A stretch of DNA of 64,000 bases from Flagellimonas profundi (GTDB lineage: Bacteria > Bacteroidota > Bacteroidia > Flavobacteriales > Flavobacteriaceae), in assembly GCF_017313275.1 (NCBI RefSeq), contig NZ_JAFLNM010000004.1, positions 124,001 through 188,000 on the forward strand, read 5' to 3'. Made by a program: the position numbers and the translations under genes. Positions 18,648-30,639 of the stretch are shown here, one piece after another. The notes beneath the pieces were generated by a model. That model ran no database searches. It was given only the letters and a program-made list of their open reading frames with translations, and was not told where the DNA came from. Each line of letters begins with the position of its first letter. The first letter of the stretch is position 1.

Positions 18648-20381
18648 TCAATCAATAGTACCCACCACACTTCCACAGGTGAGCATGGCATCTCCATAAT
18701 ACGGATTTCGTATTTTTTCTTCGAGGCTGAGCCAATTGGCCCCTTTATCATTATTTGCCATAGGGCAGTGTTGCACATAAAGTTTTGTATCCAAACTTTG
18801 CATTTGTTGCCCTATTTGAATCATATTCTGGGAAAGGAGAACAAATCCTCCACGTTGGCCATCCAGATCCTCTTTTGAAGCCATATCCGTAAGTTGTTCC
18901 GCTAATTTGGACATATGGGTCTTTCCCATGTCATCCATTGGCATATCAATTATTTCTGAAGCCATTCCAGCTCCTTTTTGTGCCAATTTTTGCGTTTGCT
19001 CCCGATTTGATGTCACCAAAGCATCCTTCAAGTTCAAATATACTTCCAACAAATCTGCAAACTCGTCCTGTACTTCTTGAGAGAACTCCATTTTCATAGT
19101 ACTGCCCATGCTTGAATGACCTTCATGACCCATTTGCATTTCTTCTCCCTCTTGGTTCATCATGGATTTCTTTCCTTGCAATTGGGCTGCTGCATCTACC
19201 GTAAAAGTACCTTTCGCAACTACCAAATCTCCAGATTTTAATCCGGAATTGACCACATAACTTCCATTTCTTAAGTTACCAAGCTGCACTTCACGCATTT
19301 CAAAAATGGAGTTGTTGGCATCTGGCTGCACATAGACCAAGGAGCGTTTTCCAGTCCATAAAACCGCACTTTCGGGAATGGTCAACGATTCATCTTGAGC
19401 ATTTGAAACCTCAACTTCCGCTTGCACGAACATGCCCGGTTTAAGCAAACCTTTTTTATTGTCAAGCTCTGCACGAACTTCCAAAGTTCTTGTATCCTTG
19501 TTCAGTGTAGGAGCAACAAAGGAAACTTGTGCTCGAAATACTTCATTGGGATACGATGTTGTCGTTACGTTCAGCATCTGTCCTTCGTTAAACAAACTCA
19601 ATTGGTTTTCATAAGCATCAAAAATGGCCCAAACGGTATTTAAATTAGCAACTTTCACCAAAGGTGAACCGGTTTTTATATAATCACCTTCCTCCACCAT
19701 AATCTCGGAAACCACCCCTCCGACATTCGCGTATACCGGAAAGTTTTCCTGTACCTTTCCCGAACTCTCGATTTGGTCGATCTGGGCATCGGTCAACTTC
19801 CACAACTTTAATTTGTTGCGGACTGCTTTGTACAATTGGGATTGGGACTCCTTTAAATTGGCTGCCGTCAGTAATTCTTGTTGTGCAGAAACCAAGGACG
19901 GTGCGTAAATAGTGGCCAACTTTTGACCTTTTCTGACCTCTTCACCTTCAAAATTGACAAAGATGTTTTCGATTCTGCCATCAAAATAGGCTGATTGAAC
20001 CGCATCAGATTTCTGATTGACCGTTACTTTACCAGAAACCTTGATGCTTTCTTCACCATCTGCAGCAGCACCTACTTGAACTGTCTCTACCCCTGCCAAT
20101 ACCATGGCATTCTCGGACATTTTAATTTGATTCGCCATGAGTCCCTCCTCCGCACTATCCGCTGGGATCAGGTCCATTCCACAAATTGGGCAAGAGCCCG
20201 GCTCTGGTTGCATGATCTGCGGATGCATGGAACAGGTCCACATTTCGCCCGAAGCTGTTTCGGCGCTGTGATCATGTTCTGTTTCGTTGGTAACATTAGA
20301 GTGGCCTCCAAATATGAGATAACCGACCAACAATCCGACCACTACGGCAATTCCTATGTATATGATGTTTTCCTTTTTCAT
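18648..20381 (-). CDS. CusB-type RND efflux periplasmic adaptor with N-terminal metal-binding module and C-terminal copper-binding domain
   Basis: A 577-residue membrane-fusion protein. A membrane anchor (residues 5-24) and a His-rich stretch come first. Next is a heavy-metal-binding module WTCSMHP...SCPICGMDL (about 48-70). The HlyD-type core follows, with barrel-sandwich, alpha-hairpin and beta-barrel parts (for example VSEIMVEEGDYIKTGSPLVKVAN and KPGMFVQAEVEV). From about residue 430 a DUF3347-like helical domain ends in QHCPMANNDKGANWLS and NPYYGDAMLTCGSV, with Cys, Met and His suited to Cu(I). It links the CusA pump to the TolC channel. It is the last gene of the copper operon, far from its pump gene, and begins 4 bases after the PepSY gene. 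Confidence 0.92.
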   Translation of the reverse strand: MKKENIIYIGIAVVVGLLVGYLIFGGHSNVTNETEHDHSAETASGEMWTCSMHPQIMQPEPGSCPICGMDLIPADSAEEGLMANQIKMSENAMVLAGVETVQVGAAADGEESIKVSGKVTVNQKSDAVQSAYFDGRIENIFVNFEGEEVRKGQKLATIYAPSLVSAQQELLTAANLKESQSQLYKAVRNKLKLWKLTDAQIDQIESSGKVQENFPVYANVGGVVSEIMVEEGDYIKTGSPLVKVANLNTVWAIFDAYENQLSLFNEGQMLNVTTTSYPNEVFRAQVSFVAPTLNKDTRTLEVRAELDNKKGLLKPGMFVQAEVEVSNAQDESLTIPESAVLWTGKRSLVYVQPDANNSIFEMREVQLGNLRNGSYVVNSGLKSGDLVVAKGTFTVDAAAQLQGKKSMMNQEGEEMQMGHEGHSSMGSTMKMEFSQEVQDEFADLLEVYLNLKDALVTSNREQTQKLAQKGAGMASEIIDMPMDDMGKTHMSKLAEQLTDMASKEDLDGQRGGFVLLSQNMIQIGQQMQSLDTKLYVQHCPMANNDKGANWLSLEEKIRNPYYGDAMLTCGSVVGTID

Positions 20382-20385
20382 AACG

Positions 20386-21093
20386 CTATTTTTTTCGTTT
20401 AACGACTTTCCTCACCGTTGGTGACGAGGTAAACCAAAGTAAAAATCCGCTCAACACGGTGATCAGCCCCAAAAGCGAAAAGGCCCGGAGCACGGTGGTA
20501 TTAAAATCATCCCTACTTTCATAATCCATTGTATGGGTCATCCAAAGAAAATCGAACCACCGCCAGTCGCGATGCCTTACGGTTTGAAAAGACCCATCGG
20601 CCACCGAAACGTAGGCCTTGATATTTTCGGGGGAATCGTAGGTGATCACATAAGCGGGCAACTTCCTTTCCCGATACTCGTGATGCTTATCGGTCTCATC
20701 AATCACCTCAACGCCTTTTACCTTTAATTCAGGTGACATTTCGCGTTCTGCCACGGCCAATGCTTCTGCTTCGGTAATCCCCTCTTTATGGTCTCCTGTT
20801 TTGGCATCCACCAAATATTCGTTATTGATCCAGTAATAAGGCTGTCCTGCAATCTCCTTTAAGCTCAACGAACTGATTTTATCGGGCAAATTGATTTGGG
20901 AAAACCCGATAAGCCCATCAAAAGCAGCGGGTTCATGATCCATGTTTCTAAAATGGTCTCCATGGATCTCATCAATATCGGTCCAGCTAAAATATAATCC
21001 ACTGGCTGTCCACATGATGAATTGTATGCCCAAAAATATTCCCAAATACCTATGGGCCTTTCTAATTTTAACCGCTGTTGTCCGTTTTACCAT
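20386..21093 (-). CDS. PepSY-domain membrane protein of the copper operon
   Basis: A 235-residue protein with one membrane helix near the N-terminus (about 18-36) and one near the C-terminus (about 203-222) around a periplasmic PepSY region. AHRYLGIFLGIQFIMWTASGL matches the first helix of the PepSY_TM family, and WMTHTMDY precedes the last helix. Conserved His residues near both helices are reminiscent of heme-binding PepSY reductases, but the protein has only two helices. It sits between copA and the adaptor gene, with gaps of 6 and 4 bases, so it belongs to the copper system. A role in reducing Cu(II) to Cu(I) or in assembly is inference. Confidence 0.8.
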   Translation of the reverse strand: MVKRTTAVKIRKAHRYLGIFLGIQFIMWTASGLYFSWTDIDEIHGDHFRNMDHEPAAFDGLIGFSQINLPDKISSLSLKEIAGQPYYWINNEYLVDAKTGDHKEGITEAEALAVAEREMSPELKVKGVEVIDETDKHHEYRERKLPAYVITYDSPENIKAYVSVADGSFQTVRHRDWRWFDFLWMTHTMDYESRDDFNTTVLRAFSLLGLITVLSGFLLWFTSSPTVRKVVKRKK

Positions 21094-21099
21094 ATTGTT

Positions 21100-23601
21100 T
21101 TAGTCGATTGATTTAGTTCGTAATCTTAATGCATTGGCTATTACCGATACCGAGCTAAAGCTCATGGCCAAGGCAGCGATCATAGGTGAGAGCAAAATCC
21201 CAAAGAAGGGATAAAGCACTCCAGCTGCAACCGGCACTCCGATGGTGTTGTATATCAATGCAAAAAATAGATTTTGTTTTATGTTTTTCATGACGGCCTC
21301 ACTGAGGTTACGTGCTTTTACAATTCCATGAAGGTCTCCTTTTACCAAAGTGATCATGGCGCTTTCAATAGCCACATCGGTTCCGGTTCCCATGGCAATA
21401 CCCAGGTCACTTTTGGCCAATGCGGGAGCATCGTTTATTCCATCTCCTGCCATGGCAACTACTTTGCCCTCTCCTTGCAAGCGCTCTACCTCTTTCATTT
21501 TGTCCTCAGGTAGGGTCTCCGCTTTAAAATCGTTCAAATGCAGTTCGCTGGCTACAGCTCGTGCCGTGGTCGCATTATCTCCGGTGAGCATGATTACCGC
21601 TATACCCTTATCCTGTATCGCTTTGATTGCCTTACCACTGGTCTCCTTGATTTTATCTCCAATGGCCACAAAACCATGACAGATGCCATCAACGGCCAAG
21701 TAAGAAACCGTTTTTCCCTCTTCTTGTGCTTTTTTCACCTTTTCCTTCATCTGATCGGAAATCTCCACTTTGGCTTTTTCCATCAACTTGATGTTCCCCA
21801 AAAGAATTTCAGAATTCTTGACTTTGCCTTCAACACCCATACCGGTAACGGCATTGAAAGCCTCCGTTTTTAGAATTTGAATGTTTTTTTCCTTACCGTA
21901 CTTTACAGTAGCCTGAGCCAAGGGATGTTCGCTATTGGTATTTACAGATACCAAGTATTGCAGTAGATCTTCTTTTGAATACTCATCAGAAAAGGTTTCC
22001 AAATGGTCAAAAGTGGGCTTACCTTCGGTAATGGTTCCTGTTTTATCAATGATCAAGGTGTCCACATCGGCCATTTTCTCCAGAGCTTCTGCGTTTTTGA
22101 TCAGCACACCATTTTGGGCACCTTTCCCAACCCCGACCATCACCGACATGGGTGTCGCCAAACCAAGTGCACAGGGACAGGCTATGATCAGAACCGCGAT
22201 GGCATTGATCAAGGCGTAAACATAGGTGGGCTGAGGACCCCAAATGGCCCAAACGGCGAAAGTCAAGATGGAAACAACGACCACCGTTGGCACAAAATAG
22301 GCCGATACCCTATCCGCCAAATTCTGAATGGGTGCTCGACTTCTACTGGCTTCGTTTACCATATTGATGATTTGCGACAGCAGGGTATCACTACCTACTT
22401 TTTCGGCCTTCATCAAAAACGTTTGATTCCCATTAATGGTACCGCTGCTTACTGTATCTTCAACTCCTTTTTCAACAGGAATGGGCTCGCCCGTGATCAT
22501 GGATTCATCCACGGAAGTTTCTCCCTCGGTAATGATTCCATCCACAGGAATTTTTTCTCCAGGTTTTACACGGAGGATATCATCCTTTTCAATATCATCA
22601 ATACTTACCTCTACTTCTTCACCATCTACCACCTTGACAGCTTTATTGGGAGCCAATTTCAACAATTCCTTAACGGCATTATTGGTTTTGCTGTGCGCCC
22701 TCGCTTCCAGTAATTGTCCCAAAAGCACCAAGGTTAGGATTACGGTCGCCGCCTCAAAATAAACATGTACCGCCCCGGATTCACCTTTAAATTGATCAGG
22801 GAAGAATCCTGGAAACAACAATCCCAACACGCTGAACACAAATGCAACACCGGCCCCAATACCAATCAATGTAAACATGTTCAGATTCCATGTTTTGATG
22901 CTTCGATAAGCTCTTTCAAAGAACATCCAAGTAGCATAAAAAACTACAGGGATCGATAGTCCAAACTGCACCCAATTCCAATATTTTGGAGCCATTACAT
23001 CATGCAATGGATTGTTGGTCAACATATCGCTCATGGCAATAAGAAAGATGGGCAAAGTAAAAGCTACCGCCAACCAAAATTTCTTGAGCAGTTTTTTATA
23101 TGTTTTCTCTTCCGCACTGGCTTCTGGTTCTTTGGGTACCAGATCCATTCCACAAATAGGGCATGAACCCGGGCCATCCTCCACAACTTCGGGGTGCATG
23201 GGGCATGTCCATTGCTGTTTGGAGCTTGCAGAGGTGTTTTGTTCCTCTATCAAATCCATCCCACAAACCGGACAGTCGCCAGGCTTGTCATATGTTTTAT
23301 CTCCCTCGCATTGCATAGGACAGTAAAAGGTGCCATTCCCGTTGGAAACAGGCTTTTTTTCCTTCTTCTTCGGTTTATGATGGTGTCCTCCGTTCGCATG
23401 AATAGTGTATCCGCCCCCATCACTTTCCAGCGCTTCTTCAAACCTTTGGATCGGGATATGTTCCTCCATCTGGATTACGGCCTCGGCTTTTTCCAGACTT
23501 ACCTCGACAGCATTGACCCCTTCCACTTTGGAAAGTGTTTCCTCTACATGACTTCTACAGCCATTACAGCTCATTCCGTGTATGTGATAGGTATGTTTCA
23601 T
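21100..23601 (-). CDS. copA: Copper-translocating P1B-type ATPase CopA
   Basis: An 833-residue Cu(I) exporter. The N-terminal HMA domain has GMSCNGC (Cys12, Cys15). Two heavy-metal-binding modules follow, FYCPMQC...CPVCGMDL (about 92-117) and WTCPMHP...CPICGMDL (about 132-157). The ATPase body has the membrane metal-binding [10 protein letters not shown], the phosphorylation motif [11 protein letters not shown], the SEHPLAQA nucleotide site and [29 protein letters not shown] near the end supplies Met and Ser of the class 1B-1 transport site. It moves Cu(I)/Ag(I) from cytoplasm to periplasm using ATP. It lies between the AraC regulator and the PepSY gene in the copper operon. The double extra module makes its cytosolic N-terminus longer than that of E. 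coli-type enzymes with HMA domains only. Confidence 0.95.
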
Positions 23602-23668: not shown

Positions 23669-24220
23669 TTATACAATTTCATCCAAGGGCTTCCGATTCC
23701 AATCTTGTACTTTTCGATATTCGCTCATGGACATTCCCGTTATCGATTTAAATTGTTTGGCCAAATGGCTGCTGCTTTTATAATTCAAATCGTAAGCGAT
23801 TTCCGAAAATGTTTTGCTTTCCATCTGGATTTCTTCCTTTACCCTTTCAATTTTTAAAAGGATGAAATACTTTTCGATGGTAAGGCCTTCTTTAGCACTG
23901 AACATCTTACTGAGTGCCGAATAATCCTTGTTCATTTTTCCTGATAGGTATGTCGAGAGATTCTGGCGCAAATCATCGTTCACGGCATTGATCAAGTGTT
24001 TTTTAACATCAGTAATATAACTGTCATTTACATCCTCGATCAATTCAAAACCATTTTTGACCAAAATCTCCCGAATACGCTCGATTTGTTCTTGGGCCCC
24101 ATCAGAAAATTGGACTTCTCCCAAGTCCATATGTACCACCTCAATGCCAGCATTCCGAAACTCTTGTTTCAAAACACCTTTACACCTGTCGCAAACCATA
24201 TTTTTCACTTTGATGCGCAT
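23669..24220 (-). CDS. AraC-family regulator with N-terminal CxxC metal-binding domain
   Basis: A 183-residue protein. Residues 1-70 look like a heavy-metal-associated fold, with VKNMVCDRCKGVL (Cys10 and Cys13) where HMA domains place their metal site. The C-terminal 100 residues form an AraC helix-turn-helix pair: KYFILLKIERVKEEI, FSEIAYDLNYKSSSHLAKQFK, GMSMSEYRKVQ. The likely meaning is a one-component cytosolic sensor that binds Cu(I)/Ag(I) directly and controls the operon that surrounds it (inference). It is inside the operon, between the metal-binding lipoprotein gene and copA, rather than divergent as for CueR or CopY. Similar proteins occur in other Bacteroidota metal loci. Confidence 0.82.
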   Translation of the reverse strand: MRIKVKNMVCDRCKGVLKQEFRNAGIEVVHMDLGEVQFSDGAQEQIERIREILVKNGFELIEDVNDSYITDVKKHLINAVNDDLRQNLSTYLSGKMNKDYSALSKMFSAKEGLTIEKYFILLKIERVKEEIQMESKTFSEIAYDLNYKSSSHLAKQFKSITGMSMSEYRKVQDWNRKPLDEIV

Positions 24221-24242: not shown

Positions 24243-24608
24243 TTAATTATGGGTATGTCCGTCTGCCATATGCTCCTCGTTCAACACATAGGTCATCCCG
24301 CAAACTGGGCATTTACCCTCTTCATCGCTTCCACTACCCTCACAATGCATTGGGCAAACATATTTAGAGGTATACTCCTTGCCTTCCATTTTGGCAGTTT
24401 CCATGCCCTCCATATCATGGCCTTCATGATCCATGCTATCCATGTCGTGGTCCATGTTTTCCATGTCATGGCCTTCGTGTTCCATGGTCGCTTCGGTAGA
24501 TGTATCCTTTGCTTCCTCGGTTTTTCCCTTGCACGATACGGTAAGTACCAATACTGAAGCAACTGCGATTCCGATAATTGTTCTAATGTTTGTTCTCATT
24601 TTTGACAT
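24243..24608 (-). CDS. Met/His-rich heavy-metal-binding lipoprotein
   Basis: A 121-residue lipoprotein (or about 118 if the second Met at 24599 is used). The signal peptide ends in a lipobox VLTVSC. The next 50 residues are dominated by His, Met, Asp and Glu, with repeated 'EGHDMENM', 'DHDMDSM' and 'EGHDMEGM' units typical of Cu/Ag-chelating periplasmic proteins. The last 40 residues hold the metal module with YVCPMHCEG and KCPVCGM, then a His-rich end. Metal buffering or hand-over to the adaptor in the periplasm is the probable task, similar to what CusF does in E. coli, though unrelated in sequence. It sits between the tolC-like and araC genes, 7 and 22 bases away. Confidence 0.87.
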   Translation of the reverse strand: MSKMRTNIRTIIGIAVASVLVLTVSCKGKTEEAKDTSTEATMEHEGHDMENMDHDMDSMDHEGHDMEGMETAKMEGKEYTSKYVCPMHCEGSGSDEEGKCPVCGMTYVLNEEHMADGHTHN

Positions 24609-24615
24609 ATTAAAT

Positions 24616-25836
24616 TTACTTGTTAATTAAATAATTGATGATGGCAGATTGCAGGTAATACAACTGCACTGATTGTATTTGATTCGTCTGGAACTTTAGC
24701 TGCAACTCCTGAATGTCCAGCACATCGTTAAAATCGATGGTTCCCGTTTCATAGTTTTTGATCAGGATTTCTTCGGCATCCTTGGCCTGTTTCAGGTTTT
24801 TAGTTTGGGTTTGATGGGCAATACGTGCCTGGTTTCTTTTCGAAACTGCATCGGCATAGGCATTTTCCAATACATTCAACCGCTCTTCTTTTTGAAGTTC
24901 TATTTCCTTGTGACGAAGCTCGTTCTGCTTGGTAATAGACTTGAACTTGTTATTGAAAATGGGGATGGAAAAAGTTACCATCGGCATTACAATATCCTTT
25001 CCATTATCGCTAAAAACCATATCGTCGCGTTCCGAAACAGGGATATAATCGAGCCCGATTCCAAAACTCGGGGCATTCTCCTTTTGGTTGAGCAATTCCG
25101 ATTGCGTTACCGATTCGTACAATTGGTCGTACTTGAGCAGTTCTGGATTAAGACTCAAATCTTCCCTGTCAAGAATAGGGTCGCTCTCGGGAACGTCCAT
25201 ATTGTTGACTACCTCAACTCCAATACTTTCATCACGATTCAACAAATTGTTGAAAATGGCCTGCTCAGCCAAGTAGGATTGTTCCAACACTTCTTTCTGC
25301 TGCTGCAGTTCGTTTTGGCGAATTTGGAGTCTCAAAACATCCACGGCCGATGCCTTTCCAACTTCCACAGAGGTCAGGGCCAAGGTCTCATAGGTTTTGA
25401 GCAGATCAATATTTTCCACTAATACTTTTTGTTTGGCCCGAATCCCGTACAATTTATAGTAGGACTGTGCTACGGAAAGGGCCAACTTTCGTTTGGCTAT
25501 CACAATTTCCGCGAATTCAGTGTCCGCCATGGAGCTGGCATAATTTTCACGGGTTGTAATGGTTCCGAACCAGGGCAACATCTGAGATACTGAAAACTTG
25601 GCTCGCTGCGCCCCTGTTCTGGTCTCAGGTTCACTGATAAAATATCCAGCTCCAATAGTGGTATTGGGCAAGGTGTTTACCTCGTTTACCTTTTCTTTGG
25701 CAATATTATAGCGCAATTCCAAGGCCTGAATCATGGGACTGTTCAATTCCGCTTCCTCAAGATAACTCTCCAAGGACTGGGCATTCACGCCAATAGTCGT
25801 TAAAACGAATACTATATAAATGAAGCTTTTTCTCAT
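24616..25836 (-). CDS. TolC-family outer-membrane efflux channel (CusC-like)
   Basis: A 406-residue outer-membrane factor with a cleaved signal peptide (MRKSFIYIVFVLTTIGVNAQ). The mature part is two repeats of long alpha-helical hairpins with Gln/Glu/Leu-rich helices (SVEVGKASAVDVLRLQIRQ; YETGTIDFNDVLDIQELQL) characteristic of TolC and CusC. It forms the exit duct for the RND pump. The start overlaps the cusA stop by 4 bases (ATGA), showing translational coupling to the pump. There is no lipobox, unlike E. coli CusC. It is somewhat shorter than proteobacterial TolC but normal for Bacteroidota metal-efflux channels. Confidence 0.92.
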   Translation of the reverse strand: MRKSFIYIVFVLTTIGVNAQSLESYLEEAELNSPMIQALELRYNIAKEKVNEVNTLPNTTIGAGYFISEPETRTGAQRAKFSVSQMLPWFGTITTRENYASSMADTEFAEIVIAKRKLALSVAQSYYKLYGIRAKQKVLVENIDLLKTYETLALTSVEVGKASAVDVLRLQIRQNELQQQKEVLEQSYLAEQAIFNNLLNRDESIGVEVVNNMDVPESDPILDREDLSLNPELLKYDQLYESVTQSELLNQKENAPSFGIGLDYIPVSERDDMVFSDNGKDIVMPMVTFSIPIFNNKFKSITKQNELRHKEIELQKEERLNVLENAYADAVSKRNQARIAHQTQTKNLKQAKDAEEILIKNYETGTIDFNDVLDIQELQLKFQTNQIQSVQLYYLQSAIINYLINK

Positions 25837-28800
25837 CGGTTTTGCATTTTAAGTTGCAATTCACTTTTCCAACTGTACAGCACTGGTACCACAAACAATG
25901 TGACTAATGCAATCAACATACCCCCAAAGCTTGGAATGGCCATGGGTATCATAATGTCGCTTCCCCTACCTGTACTGGTAAGCACGGGCAATAGCGCTAA
26001 AATTGTAGTCGCCGTGGTCATCAAACAAGGTCTGATTCGTTTTTGACCTGCTTCCAAAACCGAAGCATGAATACCTTTCAAGTTGTCGGGTCGGTTCTTA
26101 TCAAAAGTTTGGGTAAGATATGTAGCCATCACTACCCCATCATCCGTGGCAATACCGAACAGCGCAATAAATCCTACCCATACCGCCACACTCAGGTTGA
26201 TAGTGTGCATTTGAAAAAGGTCCCTCAGGTTTTCACCCATAAAACTAAAGTTGAGGAACCAATCCTGACCGTAGAACCATATCATTAAAAATCCGCCGGC
26301 AAATGCTACCATAATCCCAGAAAACACCATCAAGGATGTGGCAACCGACCTAAACTGGAAGTAGAGAATCAAGAATATGATCAACAATGCCAATGGAACC
26401 ACCACGGACAAGGTTTTCTTGGCCCGCAACTGGTTTTCATACGAGCCCGTAAACTGGTAGCTGATGCCTTTGGGCACCGTCAATTGCCCGCTTTCAATCT
26501 TTTCCAGGATCTTGGCCTGTGCATTTTCGACCACGTCCACTTCAGCATAGCCGTCTTGTTTATCGAACAGCACGTAGCCCACTAAAAAGGTATCCTCACT
26601 TTTAATGGCTTGCGGTCCTTGCTCGTATCGGATGGTTACCAATTCGCTCAACGGCACCGGACTGCCTTTTTGCACTGGAACATAAATGTTTCCGATATCG
26701 GTGGGATTCTCCCGAAGCTCCCTTGGGTAGCGCACGCGAACACTGTAGCGCTCCCTTCCTTCAACGGTTTGGGTCAGCGTCTTCCCGCCAAGGGCAACCT
26801 CCAGAATTTGCTGGACATCTTCTATCACTAGACCGTAGCGAACAAGTTTTTCGCGATCAATATCGATAAGGAGATAGGGCTTGCCAACGATTCGGTCGGC
26901 AAAAACCGCTTCATCTTTTACCCCGGCAGCTTCTTTTAAAATGGGTTCCAATTGAAGTCCAAAGTTTTCGATTTCCTTTAAATCCTGACCTTTCACTTTA
27001 ATGCCCATGGGAGCTCGCATCCCGGTTTGAAGCATTACCAAACGCGTTTCAATTGGTTGTAATTTGGGAGCTGAAGTAACCCCGGGCAACTTGGTAACTT
27101 TCACTATTTCGTTCCAAATATCGTCTGGACGCTCTATTTCCGGACGCCAGTTTCTAAAGTATTCACCGTCTTCATCCGGAATCAAAAGGTCCCTATCTAT
27201 TCGTAATGGTTCGCTCACATGGTTTTCGGCATAGTTCTGCTCATTGCTTACTTCTAAATTTGGATTGGCGAGCACTTTTCCGTTGCTCAACTCAAAATAA
27301 CCATCCGTATTTACCTTGAATCGCTGCGGACTTCCCGCTTCATTTTTTTGATACTCCGACCTGTATTGTATAATGTTCTCGTACATGGAAAGGGGTGCTG
27401 GATCTAAAGCGGATTCCGTTCTACCCGCTTTTCCTACCACGGTTTGAATCTCGGGAATGGTGGCAACAGCCATATCTAGCTGCTGCAGGACCCGTTTGTT
27501 TTCTTCCACCCCGGCATGTGGCAGTGAAGTGGGCATCAATAAGAAGGAACCTTCATTTAAGGAAGGCATGAACTCTTGGCCCGTGTTCCGCATGATCATA
27601 AATCCGAAGACCACAATTACGGTAGGAATGGAAAGGAACAGTAATTTGTTTTCCAAGGCCCAGGTCAAAATACGACCGTAATATTGTCTAAAGAGGTAAA
27701 ATACGCCCAATAGACCACCACATATCAACCCAACAAAAAACAGATTTATACCAATACTCCGATCAAAGCCCAACGGTCTCCAATAAGCGGCCAACAAGAA
27801 AATAATCGTAACAACACAAATACCCACATTGAGCATTCCTGCCCATTTTTCATCAATAACCTCTCTCCATTTTAGGATTCCCGAAACACCAAAGGCGATC
27901 AAGGCCAAGCCCAACCAATATCCGAAAGCGATGGCCGCCAACCCCAAGGCGATCAAAAGACCGTTCCAAATGTATTTGAAAATTTGATTTACACTTTTCT
28001 TTCTAAAAATTGCAGCTGCAAAAGGTGGGATCAAAAAGAGGGCAACGATTATGGAAGCCGTCAATGCCATGGTTTTAGTAAAGGCCAGGGGTCGGAAGAG
28101 CTTTCCTTCGGCCCCCACCATGGTAAACACAGGAATAAAACTGATGATGGTAGTCAGCACCGCAGTCAAAATAGCGCCTGACACCTCGGAAGTCGCATTA
28201 TAGACCACTTCATTGGTCGACAAGCTTGCATCGTTCTCATCCATATGACGAATAATGTTCTCCGAGAGAATCACCCCAACATCTACCATGGTTCCAATTG
28301 CAATGGCGATACCTGATAGTGCTACGATATTGGCCTCTACCCCGAACATTTTCATAGCGATGAACACCATGAGCACTGCAACGGGCAGCAGTCCAGAAAT
28401 CAAAACGGAGGCCCTAAGATTAAATACCATGACCACAATCACCAAAATGGTGATCAGAATTTCAAGGGTCAAGGCTTCATTGAGTGTTCCAAGTGTTTCT
28501 TGGATAAGTTCGGTTCTATCGTAAAAAGGTACAATGGTGAGCTGTGAAGTGGTTCCATCCTTTAATTCTTTGGAAGGTAGTCCTGCACTCAGCTCCTTTA
28601 TTTGTTCTTTTACGTTATTGATGACTTCCAACGGATTGGCGCCATAACGGGCTACAACCACACCGCCTACCACTTCGGCACCCTCCTTGTCCAGAATCCC
28701 ACGGCGAACAGCTGGCCCCAAAGAAACCCGGGCCACATCCTGAACGCGAATGGAAGTATAGTCTGTTGCAGTAACTACAGCATTTTTTATATCGTCCAAA

Positions 28801-29573
28801 GATTTAATGTAGCCAAGCCCACGCACCAAATATTCGGCTTTATTGATTTCCAAGGTCTGTGCACCAATATCCCGATTGCTCTGTTTTACGGCTTTCACCA
28901 CTTGATCCAAACCAACATTGTACTGTTTCATCAGTTCGGGGTCCACATCCACTTGGTATTCCTGAACAAAACCTCCGATGGATGCCACTTCGGATACACC
29001 GGATGCAGAAGAAAGAGCGTATTTTACATAGTAATCCTGTACACTACGAAGTTCCTGCAAATCCCATCCTCCAGTCACATTGCCTTCTTTATCGCGACCT
29101 TCCAGCGTATACCAGAAAATCTGTCCCAAAGCCGTGGCATCGGGTCCCAAAGCAGGGTTTACACCATTTGGCAACAAGTTATTGGGAAGCGAATTGAGTT
29201 TTTCCAAAATACGGCTTCGACTCCAGTAGAATTCCACATCCTCCTCAAAAATGATGTATATGCTGGAAAAACCGAACATAGAAGAACTTCGAATGGTCTT
29301 GACCCCTGGAATGCCCAATAACGAAGTGGTCAACGGATAGGTGATCTGATCTTCTATATCTTGTGGAGAACGACCTGGCCACTTGGTAAAAACAATTTGT
29401 TGGTTTTCGCCAATATCGGGAATTGCATCCACGGCAACGGGGTTACTGGGCAAAATGCCGCCAGTATCCCAATTAAAAGGAGTACTAACAATACCCCATG
29501 CCATAAAAAATAGCAGGAGCAGCACAGCTACCAATTTGTTCTCTATTAAAAATTTGATGCTCTTGTTCAGCAT
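25833..29573 (-). CDS. cusA: CusA/CzcA-type heavy-metal RND efflux pump
   Basis: A 1246-residue inner-membrane pump. The N-terminus FLIENKLVAVLLLLFFMAWG is the first helix; AVDAIPDIGENQQIVFTKWPGRSPQDIE is diagnostic for heavy-metal RND pumps. Asp431 in GTMVDVGVI is the expected proton-relay residue. Met residues at LLMPTSLPHAG (Met680), DPAPLSM (Met730) and TRLVMLQTGM match the three Met of the CusA Cu/Ag site, so Cu(I)/Ag(I) is favoured over Zn/Co/Cd. An extra hydrophobic block at residues 535-628 adds about four membrane segments absent from E. coli CusA, making the protein about 200 residues longer. It is the second gene of the operon, after a 91-base gap holding nested inverted repeats. 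Confidence 0.95.
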   Translation of the reverse strand: MLNKSIKFLIENKLVAVLLLLFFMAWGIVSTPFNWDTGGILPSNPVAVDAIPDIGENQQIVFTKWPGRSPQDIEDQITYPLTTSLLGIPGVKTIRSSSMFGFSSIYIIFEEDVEFYWSRSRILEKLNSLPNNLLPNGVNPALGPDATALGQIFWYTLEGRDKEGNVTGGWDLQELRSVQDYYVKYALSSASGVSEVASIGGFVQEYQVDVDPELMKQYNVGLDQVVKAVKQSNRDIGAQTLEINKAEYLVRGLGYIKSLDDIKNAVVTATDYTSIRVQDVARVSLGPAVRRGILDKEGAEVVGGVVVARYGANPLEVINNVKEQIKELSAGLPSKELKDGTTSQLTIVPFYDRTELIQETLGTLNEALTLEILITILVIVVMVFNLRASVLISGLLPVAVLMVFIAMKMFGVEANIVALSGIAIAIGTMVDVGVILSENIIRHMDENDASLSTNEVVYNATSEVSGAILTAVLTTIISFIPVFTMVGAEGKLFRPLAFTKTMALTASIIVALFLIPPFAAAIFRKKSVNQIFKYIWNGLLIALGLAAIAFGYWLGLALIAFGVSGILKWREVIDEKWAGMLNVGICVVTIIFLLAAYWRPLGFDRSIGINLFFVGLICGGLLGVFYLFRQYYGRILTWALENKLLFLSIPTVIVVFGFMIMRNTGQEFMPSLNEGSFLLMPTSLPHAGVEENKRVLQQLDMAVATIPEIQTVVGKAGRTESALDPAPLSMYENIIQYRSEYQKNEAGSPQRFKVNTDGYFELSNGKVLANPNLEVSNEQNYAENHVSEPLRIDRDLLIPDEDGEYFRNWRPEIERPDDIWNEIVKVTKLPGVTSAPKLQPIETRLVMLQTGMRAPMGIKVKGQDLKEIENFGLQLEPILKEAAGVKDEAVFADRIVGKPYLLIDIDREKLVRYGLVIEDVQQILEVALGGKTLTQTVEGRERYSVRVRYPRELRENPTDIGNIYVPVQKGSPVPLSELVTIRYEQGPQAIKSEDTFLVGYVLFDKQDGYAEVDVVENAQAKILEKIESGQLTVPKGISYQFTGSYENQLRAKKTLSVVVPLALLIIFLILYFQFRSVATSLMVFSGIMVAFAGGFLMIWFYGQDWFLNFSFMGENLRDLFQMHTINLSVAVWVGFIALFGIATDDGVVMATYLTQTFDKNRPDNLKGIHASVLEAGQKRIRPCLMTTATTILALLPVLTSTGRGSDIMIPMAIPSFGGMLIALVTLFVVPVLYSWKSELQLKMQNR

Positions 29574-29578
29574 AAAGG

Positions 29579-29669
29579 TTTGATTTAAACATTAGATCAA
29601 TACAAAACGCGCATAAATGCAGACGCCCGACCAAATAAGTCGGGTAATTCAATCCAAGTTTAAATCAAA
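29579..29669. promoter_or_regulatory. Nested inverted repeats just before cusA
   Basis: TTTGATTTAAAC (29579-29590), starting 5 bases beyond the cusA ATG, is exactly complementary to GTTTAAATCAAA (29658-29669), which overlaps the stop codon of the preceding gene. Inside lies a GC-rich hairpin CCCGAC-CAAATAA-GTCGGG (29626-29644). The two arms plus inner stem could fold as one branched RNA in the gap between the first and second cistrons. No T run follows, so simple termination is unlikely. RNA processing or control of cusA translation is possible. Confidence 0.55.
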
Positions 29670-30051
29670 TAAGGAAAGTCTGGTCAAGAACCTGTACGTC
29701 CCGTATCAATGGGGGCGGATTATATTCACCGAAAGTAACGGGTTCTTGAGAATCAATTTCGAAAAGCTGAAAATAGGTTTGGACAAAGCTTACCAAGAAG
29801 ACTTGTTGGTCCAAATCAAAGTTCTCAAAGGAAATTTTTAGGTCATGCTGACCTTGAAGGGTAAAAGTTTCATCATCACAACAGGATTTTTCCATTTCCA
29901 TGTCCATACCGCAGTCATCGGCATGGGCAAATAAGGAAATATCCATCACTTTCCCCATACAAATATGCTTGTCGACCGTCCACGAAACTGTAGAGGCCAA
30001 GACCAAAAGGGCCATTAATGAGGATACTATTTGATGAAAAATCTGTTTCAT
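29665..30051 (-). CDS. HYC_CC_PP family small exported protein
   Basis: A 128-residue protein with a signal peptide (residues 1-25). It shows the three features that name this Bacteroidota family in modified form: HICMG (His-x-Cys) near residue 33, the Cys pair KSCCDDE near 58, and PPP near 113. Met, His, Cys and Asp between them (HADDCGMDMEMEK) suggest metal binding. Proteins of this family are regularly found next to copper and mercury efflux genes; the biochemical role is not known. It is the first gene of the copper operon here, 91 bases before cusA. The length is typical and a TAnnTTTG element lies immediately upstream. Confidence 0.8.
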   Translation of the reverse strand: MKQIFHQIVSSLMALLVLASTVSWTVDKHICMGKVMDISLFAHADDCGMDMEMEKSCCDDETFTLQGQHDLKISFENFDLDQQVFLVSFVQTYFQLFEIDSQEPVTFGEYNPPPLIRDVQVLDQTFLI

Positions 30052-30058
30052 TCGATTA

Positions 30059-30088
30059 CAAAACTACAAAATATCAACAATTATTGTT
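30059..30088 (-). promoter_or_regulatory. Candidate copper-operon promoter with adjoining dyad
   Basis: On the minus strand TAGTTTTG (30059-30066) is a perfect -7 element only 7 bases from the ATG of the first operon gene, so the transcript would be nearly or fully leaderless if used. Just upstream AACAAT-T-ATTGTT (30076-30088) is a 6-6 inverted repeat between the -7 and -33 positions, a natural place for an activator or repressor such as the operon's AraC protein. No TTG lies at the normal spacing, which fits an activator-dependent promoter. Confidence 0.45.
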
Positions 30089-30136
30089 TTGCTTAACAGA
30101 ACTTTATCTGTTTTCAACATGTAAGCTCTCTTTAAT

Positions 30137-30168
30137 TTGTCGTACAAATCCACTATTCAATACATTTG
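30137..30168 (+). promoter_or_regulatory. Promoter of the GAF-domain gene (TTG-N21-TAnnTTTG)
   Basis: TTG at 30137-30139 and TACATTTG at 30161-30168 are 21 bases apart, the same spacing as the miaB promoter. As there, an in-frame TTG inside the -7 element extends the reading frame, but transcription starts after it, so the ATG at 30187 is the start. Confidence 0.78.
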
Positions 30169-30186
30169 CAAAAAAAAAATCATCTC

Positions 30187-30639
30187 ATGCTAAAATCATT
30201 GGAACCCAAGTTACTCGAAATCGTAAAGGATGAAACCAAATCCGTGGATACCCGTTTGGGCGAAATCTGCGAACTTTTACAAACCAATGTGGATTATTAC
30301 GATTGGGTAGGGTTTTATTTTAAAAATGGGGATAAAGAGGAATTGAAACTGGGACCCTACGCTGGCGAACCGACCGATCATACCATCATACCGTTTGGAA
30401 AGGGCATCTGCGGACAAGTGGCCGTGAGCAATGAGAACTTTGTGGTACCCGATGTGGCCGCTCAAGACAATTATATCGCCTGTAGCATTACGGTAAAAGC
30501 AGAAATTGTGGTTCCCTTGTTTGTAAACGGTGAAAATGTGGGCCAAATCGATATCGATTCCAATACTCCGGACCCATTTACAGAGGAAGATGAGCGCTTT
30601 TTGGAATTCATCAACCAGAAAGTGGCGGAGATTCTGTAA
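30187..30639 (+). CDS. GAF-domain protein, free methionine-(R)-sulfoxide reductase-like
   Basis: A 150-residue single GAF domain. The sequence follows the fRMsr family: WVGFYF, KLGPYAGEPTDHTIIPFGKGICG, DNYIACS, AEIVVPLF and GQIDIDS, with each motif in order. Of the three Cys used by E. coli fRMsr (Cys84, Cys94, Cys118), the equivalents of Cys94 (GICG, Cys75 here) and Cys118 (IACS, Cys99 here) are present. The first, in the 'G-x-x-A-C' loop, is replaced (GEPTDH). Activity may therefore need another reductant or be altered. It is a single gene with its own promoter, divergent from the copper operon, 93 bases before purH. Confidence 0.75.
   Translation: MLKSLEPKLLEIVKDETKSVDTRLGEICELLQTNVDYYDWVGFYFKNGDKEELKLGPYAGEPTDHTIIPFGKGICGQVAVSNENFVVPDVAAQDNYIACSITVKAEIVVPLFVNGENVGQIDIDSNTPDPFTEEDERFLEFINQKVAEIL

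Follow-up and report, generated by a model that had tools for sequence, protein, structure and literature searches.

A putative copper-sensing regulator with an HMA-like domain joined to an AraC DNA-binding domain in a copper-efflux operon of Flagellimonas profundi

The window, by which we mean the whole 64,000-nucleotide stretch of Flagellimonas profundi DNA analysed here, contains a run of minus-strand genes for metal efflux. Among them lies the gene for a small regulator in which a predicted HMA-like domain is joined to an AraC-type DNA-binding domain. The features of the locus are as follows.

18648..20381, minus strand: CusB-like periplasmic adaptor with HMBD and DUF3347
20386..21093, minus strand: PepSY-TM membrane protein
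21100..23601, minus strand: CopA, a P1B copper P-type ATPase (HMA, two HMBD and the TM6 motif), next downstream of the regulator
23669..24220, minus strand: HMA-AraC one-component regulator of 183 aa, with HMA at residues 1-62 (C10, C13) and the AraC DNA-binding domain at about 64-172
24017..24220, minus strand: HMA-like putative sensor domain of the regulator (codons 1-68), also modelled alone
24243..24608, minus strand: small protein with a heavy-metal-binding domain (HMBD), encoded just upstream of the regulator
24616..25836, minus strand: TolC-like outer membrane efflux protein
25833..29573, minus strand: CusA/CzcA-family heavy-metal RND pump (TIGR00914, 788.7 bits, over the cut-off)
29665..30051, minus strand: HYC_CC_PP family protein (NF047658), whose gene opens the operon
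30052..30112, minus strand: operon promoter region with a candidate operator box, TTCTGTTAAGCAAAA (30087-30101), a dyad, AACAATAATTGTT (30076-30088), and a putative promoter element, TAGTTTTG (30059-30066)

Read from the promoter, the order on the minus strand is HYC_CC_PP, CusA, TolC, HMBD protein, regulator, CopA, PepSY and CusB, and the TolC-like gene overlaps the CusA gene by 4 bp. CopA of the window scored 585.7 bits against the copper model TIGR01511 (cut-off 397); it also passed the cadmium-family model (397 against a cut-off of 313.5 bits), with the copper score the higher of the two. The locus thus has what defines a cop/cus operon, a copper-type P1B ATPase and an HME-RND CusA/CusB set running in one direction. 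The order CusA, TolC, regulator, CopA, CusB was kept in all 29 orthologous loci, which are named records from Flagellimonas/Muricauda (phylum Bacteroidota); HYC_CC_PP and a separate HMBD gene were each present in 28 of the 29 and PepSY in 26. Because these loci were found with motif-bearing patterns, they show synteny and not motif conservation, which we took instead from samples selected without the motif. The original prediction had placed the sensor inside its own operon, and the TIGR01511 and TIGR00914 scores over cut-off, together with the 29/29 synteny, support a place within a copper-efflux operon. The start of a divergent GAF-domain gene (30166-30639, plus strand) is some 115 bp away from the operon, and this gene has its intergenic region in common with the putative copper promoter. 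Relatives of the HYC_CC_PP protein that opens the operon (NF047658) also adjoin two paralogous regulators (L039 and L040).

The regulator open reading frame spans exactly 23669-24220 with an ATG start and encodes 183 amino acids. Pfam placed HTH_18 on residues 95-170 (E=4.5e-13) and HTH_AraC on residues 132-170, both over their cut-offs (PF12833, 49.7 bits vs 33.6; PF00165, 38.9 vs 26.6), and residues 65-181 of the predicted structure superposed on MarA with Z 14.9 (rmsd 2.3 over 114 residues). The protein therefore has the DNA-binding domain with two helix-turn-helix motifs by which AraC/XylS members are recognised and which it has in common with MarA, SoxS, Rob and AraC. It differs from AraC/XylS regulators in that its putative sensor is an N-terminal 62-residue HMA domain rather than a cupin or other ligand domain, within a total of 183 aa. 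No CueR, CsoR, CopY or ArsR family domain was present among its Pfam or NCBIfam matches.

The stretch VKNMVCDRCKG is present in the protein as had been predicted, and C10 and C13 are its only two cysteines. C10, R12 and C13, along with M8, were invariant in 17 aligned rows of the family, 10 of which came from a search whose pattern contained the motif. Seven full-length or nearly full-length members are encoded in the F. profundi genome; these were found without the motif pattern, and all of them keep MVCxRC, with x being D, R, R, N, N, P and P. The invariance of C10, R12 and C13 and the retention of MVCxRC in the members found without the motif pattern argue that the CxxC motif is not due to chance. 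All seven members sit near metal-handling genes. Among the six paralogues, L006 has a P1B ATPase together with an HMA protein, L007 has its P1B ATPase some 5 kb downstream and an HMA-like match closer, and L004 has a P1B ATPase and a CDF transporter; L002 lies by an HYC_CC_PP protein, L003 by an HYC_CC_PP protein (a 36% match) plus an HMA protein, and L005, the weakest metal case among them, by an RND system and adaptor of general type.

The HMA assignment of the N-terminal part rests on profile searches. Pfam gave nothing over cut-off in this part of the regulator; PF00403 (Pfam HMA) was absent from the regulator at E<=1 and from six paralogues at E<=0.1, and NCBIfam gave a weak CopZ match (residues 3-59, E=0.052, below cut-off). 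A profile of 15 N-domains searched against PDB sequences retrieved the ATP7B HMA domains (E=2.5e-8 and 2.9e-7), the copper ATPase CopA (1p6t, E=2.7e-4) and CopZ (E=3.6e-4), and the top 20 rows of this search were all copper or heavy-metal proteins. HMA domains encoded at the same loci, in CopA and other P1B ATPases and in a CopZ-like protein, matched in profile-profile comparison with E=1.9e-5 (probability 77.6).

Predicted structures agree with this assignment. AlphaFold2 with 17 sequences modelled the regulator at pLDDT 87.8 with E2-6, H11-23, E28-32, E35-38 and H42-55, then helices; the N-domain modelled alone (pLDDT 87.1) followed the beta-alpha-beta-beta-alpha-beta order of HMA domains, with E59-63 closing the sheet. 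The MxCxxC loop falls at the end of strand 1 (M8-V-C10-D-R-C13). Among solved structures, the N-domain model was closest to TM0320 (Z 9.3, rmsd 1.9, 63 residues aligned), followed by Atox1/HAH1 (Z 8.5), GolB (8.4) and ATP7B, all within 8.2-8.5. ACT-type domains came nearly as close as the chaperones (Z 7.5-8.2), and Foldseek with the N-domain alone returned no match at E<=0.001 (best Atx1, 0.014). We therefore rejected the fold alone as proof of metal binding, and it is the sequence evidence that carries the HMA call. By profile and predicted model, the N-domain is an HMA domain of the copper-chaperone type. It has the fold and MxCxxC loop of CopZ/Atx1/Atox1 and of the ATP7B/CopA HMA domains, but it is fused to a DNA-binding domain, carries NMVCxRC in place of GMxCxxC and lies beyond the reach of Pfam HMA. 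Two elements of the original prediction, a small HMA-like domain and its fusion to AraC helices, are thus supported by the profile searches, the predicted fold and the Pfam HTH matches. Anatomy and context together are strong support for an HMA-AraC protein of the one-component type within a copper-efflux operon.

We compared the promoter region across 28 orthologous promoters (L033 and L037, of the 29 orthologous loci, had no promoter and were left out). The TAGTTTTG element resembles the -7 box of Bacteroidota, and in 27 of the 28 TAnnTTTG precedes the start codon at a fixed place, by 6-8 bases. This would put the transcription start almost at the ATG, so that the message would be nearly leaderless, or else the element is something different. 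Upstream of it, TTCTGTTAA was found in 25 of the 28 promoters and CTGTTAA in 26; TTCTGTTAA was one base off in L034 and absent from L036. In L030-L032 and L035 (59-62% protein identity), the further-upstream sequence diverges and TTCTGTTAA is kept. Outside the promoters of the 27 orthologues, the longer pattern TTCTGTTAA[A/G]CnAA[A/G] occurred once in 4.18 Mb of strand sequence, at the window promoter. From this conservation, the TTCTGTTAA box is likely the operator. AraC/XylS regulators bind tandem direct repeats, and a candidate pair of TGTTAA sites about 19 bp apart was seen by eye in many of the orthologous promoters.

The dyad AACAAT-T-ATTGTT, which had been proposed as the binding site, did not hold up as a conserved operator. 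The sequence AACAATAATTGTT has one exact copy in the window (30076-30088), and among the 28 promoters it was exact in two, those of the window and of L009, whose regulator is 97% identical; with up to two mismatches the window contained 9 matches against 8.6 expected. The TTCTGTTAA box was likewise rejected as a regulon marker. Its pattern had two exact matches in the whole genome, the operon promoter and a site within a coding frame, and with up to one mismatch there were 9 genome matches against 16 for the reversed control, which is no enrichment. Four of the seven one-mismatch sites were located (the remaining three are on contig C4): two lie in coding frames and two are intergenic, preceding an ABC-transporter ATPase gene and an other-strand TPR-protein gene. 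No second metal target appeared among the two exact sites and these four.

Whether the same fusion occurs near copA in other genomes was a check put forward with the original prediction. With a 17-row profile (E<=1e-20), family matches were found in 96 of 198 Bacteroidota genomes and 59 of 103 genera. We surveyed 100 loci. Each of 91 genomes with listed coordinates contributed its best match, and nine second copies were added (for 4 of the 96 genomes with a match no coordinates were listed, and these are not in the set; the stretches L076 and L165 overlap). Metal genes were defined as P1B, CusA, CusB, HMA, HMBD, CDF, multicopper oxidase, four-helix Cu protein and HYC_CC_PP, and were called by phmmer (E<=1e-6) against proteins from the F. 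profundi loci in stretches of mostly 8.5 kb. Of the 100 members, 91 have CxxC and nine have SxxC. Metal genes lay within about 4 kb at 77 of the 91 CxxC loci and at none of the nine SxxC loci; the other 14 CxxC members had no metal gene in the stretch. All 77 metal-linked members, spread over many genera, keep the CxxC pair. The controls, 20 stretches shifted by 150 kb on the same contigs and 20 stretches that hold other AraC-domain genes from these genomes (hand-picked, one per genome, frames of 278-352 aa, no hybrid kinases), contained no metal genes. The nearest metal gene shared the strand of the regulator in 72 of the 77 cases. P1B ATPases numbered 67 at 65 of the 91 loci; 60 of the 67 were downstream on the same strand, 39 of them within about 400 bp. 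The fusion thus recurs beside copA in many genera.

A full-length HMA-AraC gene, followed by multicopper oxidase and RND efflux genes, is also found on plasmid pRUNSL02 of Runella slithyformis (L267). The plasmid is typed as conjugative, and the module may therefore move between Bacteroidota. Public plasmid records label members as 'AraC family transcriptional regulator', 'helix-turn-helix protein' or 'response regulator'. These generic labels, and the blindness of Pfam HMA to the domain in the seven proteins tested, may be why the family has gone unnoticed.

The residues of the loop vary with the type of pump nearby. Beside CxRC members, 54 of 61 ATPases carry CPCA[L/M]GLATP, which from P1B typing we take to be the copper-type motif; two have CPH and five have a zinc-type motif. 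Beside CSHC members, five of six ATPases carry CPCGLVIS[I/V]P and one has SPC, and the copper motif occurs in none. NCBIfam was run on nine of the 67 ATPases, five at CSHC loci and four beside CxRC members. The five at CSHC loci were over the cadmium-family cut-off and under the copper cut-off; beside CxRC members, L126, L139 and L093 (CPH) were over the copper cut-off and L113, a zinc-type exception, was under it. At CxRC loci, four of the five exceptional zinc-type ATPases are encoded on the opposite strand. In L127 and L133, a second HMA-AraC gene with MVCSHC adjoins the ATPase on the strand of the ATPase; in L107 the stretch ends within a second copy, and in L113 no second HMA-AraC copy was seen in the stretch. 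CxRC and CSHC copies thus occur within the same stretch in L127 and L133, and members of the CSHC branch lie beside zinc/cadmium-type P1B ATPases at L105, L109, L116, L121, L124, L127:7851-8441 and L133:113-721. These data point to the loop as a metal selector, with the CSHC branch being one clade and hence one event.

A further search with an SxxC protein added 20 loci (L222-L241), picked by likeness to that one protein and so not a random sample, in which metal genes were found at 1 of 18 SxxC loci and 0 of 2 CxxC loci. Ser-form members overall had a metal gene near in 1 of 27 cases. The MVSxRC-like members are L135, L145, L146, L150, L155-L157, L166, L169, L222-L227, L229-L231 and L233-L241. 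A quick tree, in which many forks are weak, placed the Ser forms in one clade of 31 rows (SH-aLRT 95) made up of 26 Ser members without metal genes, one Ser member with metal genes and four Cys members without. Since the Ser and CSHC branches each form one clade, both correlations trace back to single evolutionary events. The association of the Cys-to-Ser change with metal context was rejected as statistical proof (Fisher p of about 1.6e-14, but one clade, and an independent-pairs test that with 2 pairs had no power), and it is a qualitative contrast only. The four CxxC members without metal genes in the Ser clade suggest that loss of context may precede loss of the cysteine. By eye, L135 and L145 have a hybrid histidine kinase gene next downstream (with PAS domains in L145) and then a small response-regulator-like gene; L146 has ferritin-like and YceI-like genes nearby.

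We surveyed the 198 Bacteroidota genomes for CueR, CopY and CsoR. The curated CueR and CopY cut-offs were passed in none of them; among 14 control genomes, each of the two models had one with a match over the cut-off. Matches below cut-off were common, MerR-like in 86 genomes and BlaI/CopY-like in 99, and the best MerR protein came near the CueR cut-off (137.6 vs 147.4 bits). CsoR-family proteins were found in 61 of the 198 genomes but in 16 of the 103 genera. Given the lack of CueR and CopY over cut-off and the restriction of CsoR to 16 genera, HMA-AraC (59 of 103 genera) is a direct candidate for the sensor. Two weak CsoR-family matches in the F. profundi genome, at 52.4 and 49.4 bits, exceed the cut-off of 22.8, so the HMA-AraC protein need not be its only copper sensor. 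A mutual exclusion of CsoR and HMA-AraC was rejected; the two share 8 genomes (p=8e-12 by genome), but at genus level, where the heavy sampling of two genera no longer counts, the signal disappears (p=0.59).

A search of titles and abstract starts in the open-access literature found no description of an HMA-AraC sensor. The original prediction had called this arrangement a less studied solution; with matches in 96 of 198 genomes it is a phylum-wide family and no rarity. The regulator is built from two known domains whose order and pairing we did not find described. In the review PMC7558416, the cytosolic Cu(I) sensors of efflux genes are of four families, the MerR, CsoR, CopY and ArsR types, with an N-terminal DNA-binding domain and a C-terminal metal domain, and 'AraC' does not occur in it. 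CueR (MerR), CsoR, CopY and BxmR (ArsR) resemble the regulator as one-component proteins that control copper efflux in the cytosol through Cys ligands; HMA-AraC reverses their domain order and pairs other domains. In a survey of copper homeostasis in Bizionia argentinensis, a related flavobacterium with copA-cusB gene groups (PMC11213822), the MerR and CopY types that were found lacked copper sites, the ArsR types had two conserved Cys, and there were response regulators resembling CusR; 'AraC' does not occur in the text. The closest AraC-family parallel is YbtA of E. coli UTI89, which according to PMC8725597 responds to copper-yersiniabactin and needs a CXXC pair (C206, C209) for activity, with the actual intracellular signal left undecided by its authors. 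YbtA resembles the regulator in its family, its copper-linked activation and its CXXC pair; it differs in its Cu(II)-Ybt ligand, in the position of the CXXC far along a Cys-rich ligand domain, and in acting on siderophore genes rather than efflux (PMC8725597).

We consider it likely that the regulator is a Cu(I)-sensing one-component regulator of its own operon, and we infer the ligand, the dimerisation, the role of the box, co-transcription and activation. In the model that we propose, a rise in cytoplasmic Cu(I) would lead to Cu(I) being bound directly or passed on by CopZ-like HMA proteins, and the N-terminal 62-residue HMA domain would take up Cu(I), perhaps also Ag(I), through C10 and C13. 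The copper-loaded regulator, probably dimeric, would bind the conserved box, which lies 21-35 bases upstream of the -7-like element. Domains of the Atx1/CopZ type undergo Cu-bridged dimerisation, and dimerisation of the regulator may likewise be bridged by copper. The bound regulator would recruit RNA polymerase, and HYC_CC_PP-cusA-tolC-HMBD-regulator-copA-pepSY-cusB would be co-transcribed, the regulator's own gene included.

AraC-type DNA-binding domains are usually activators, and by eye there is no good -33 TTG at normal spacing, which suits an activator-dependent promoter; activation is therefore more likely than repression as the sign of control. The opposite sign, with repression of the operon by the apo-protein and its relief by Cu(I), would follow the CsoR, CopY and ArsR-type sensors. 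The -7-like element has both the conserved box and the dyad within about 45 bp, close enough for a bound protein to block polymerase as well, and according to PMC7558416 cytosolic copper sensors act as repressors except for the MerR types. Weighed against the properties of the DNA-binding domain and the promoter, we find repression unlikely. Sensing of another thiophilic metal (Zn, Cd or Hg), or of several metals, is somewhat more doubtful again. The CSHC branch beside Zn/Cd-type ATPases indicates that the scaffold can be retuned, the CusA/CzcA pump model is not copper-specific, and the window CopA does pass the cadmium-family cut-off. However, that CopA scores higher on the copper model, copper-type ATPases prevail beside CxRC members, and two of the four opposite-strand zinc-type exceptions have a CSHC paralogue as neighbour.

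Two further explanations would take metal sensing away from the N-domain. CxxC pairs can form disulphides, and one paralogue has a weak glutaredoxin match (E=0.031, under cut-off), so that a C10-C13 disulphide might act as a thiol redox switch that signals oxidative or copper-caused stress. We hold this to be very improbable, since profile and predicted fold both identify the domain as HMA and the motif tracks pump type and context. MarA and SoxS act without a sensor domain, and a clade without the first Cys exists; the HMA domain might then be a decayed remnant or a docking domain, with the AraC part driven by its expression level. Retention of CxxC in every metal-linked member of the 100 loci would be unexpected for a remnant, and we give this explanation hardly any credence, marginally less than the redox switch.

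Returning to Cu(I) sensing, we lean towards a broader reading in which HMA-AraC proteins would be the main Cu(I) sensor class of the Bacteroidota and a fifth family of efflux regulators, with CxRC forms for copper, CxHC forms for zinc/cadmium and the Ser clade recruited to a non-metal signal. The CxRC, CSHC and SxRC forms make a natural series for asking how the loop of a chaperone-type domain determines the metal, and a small regulator with two cysteines is suited to structural work and biosensors. HMA-AraC is a candidate cytosolic copper sensor for much of the Bacteroidota, and its relatives beside metal pumps in many genera may be an overlooked class of metal sensors.
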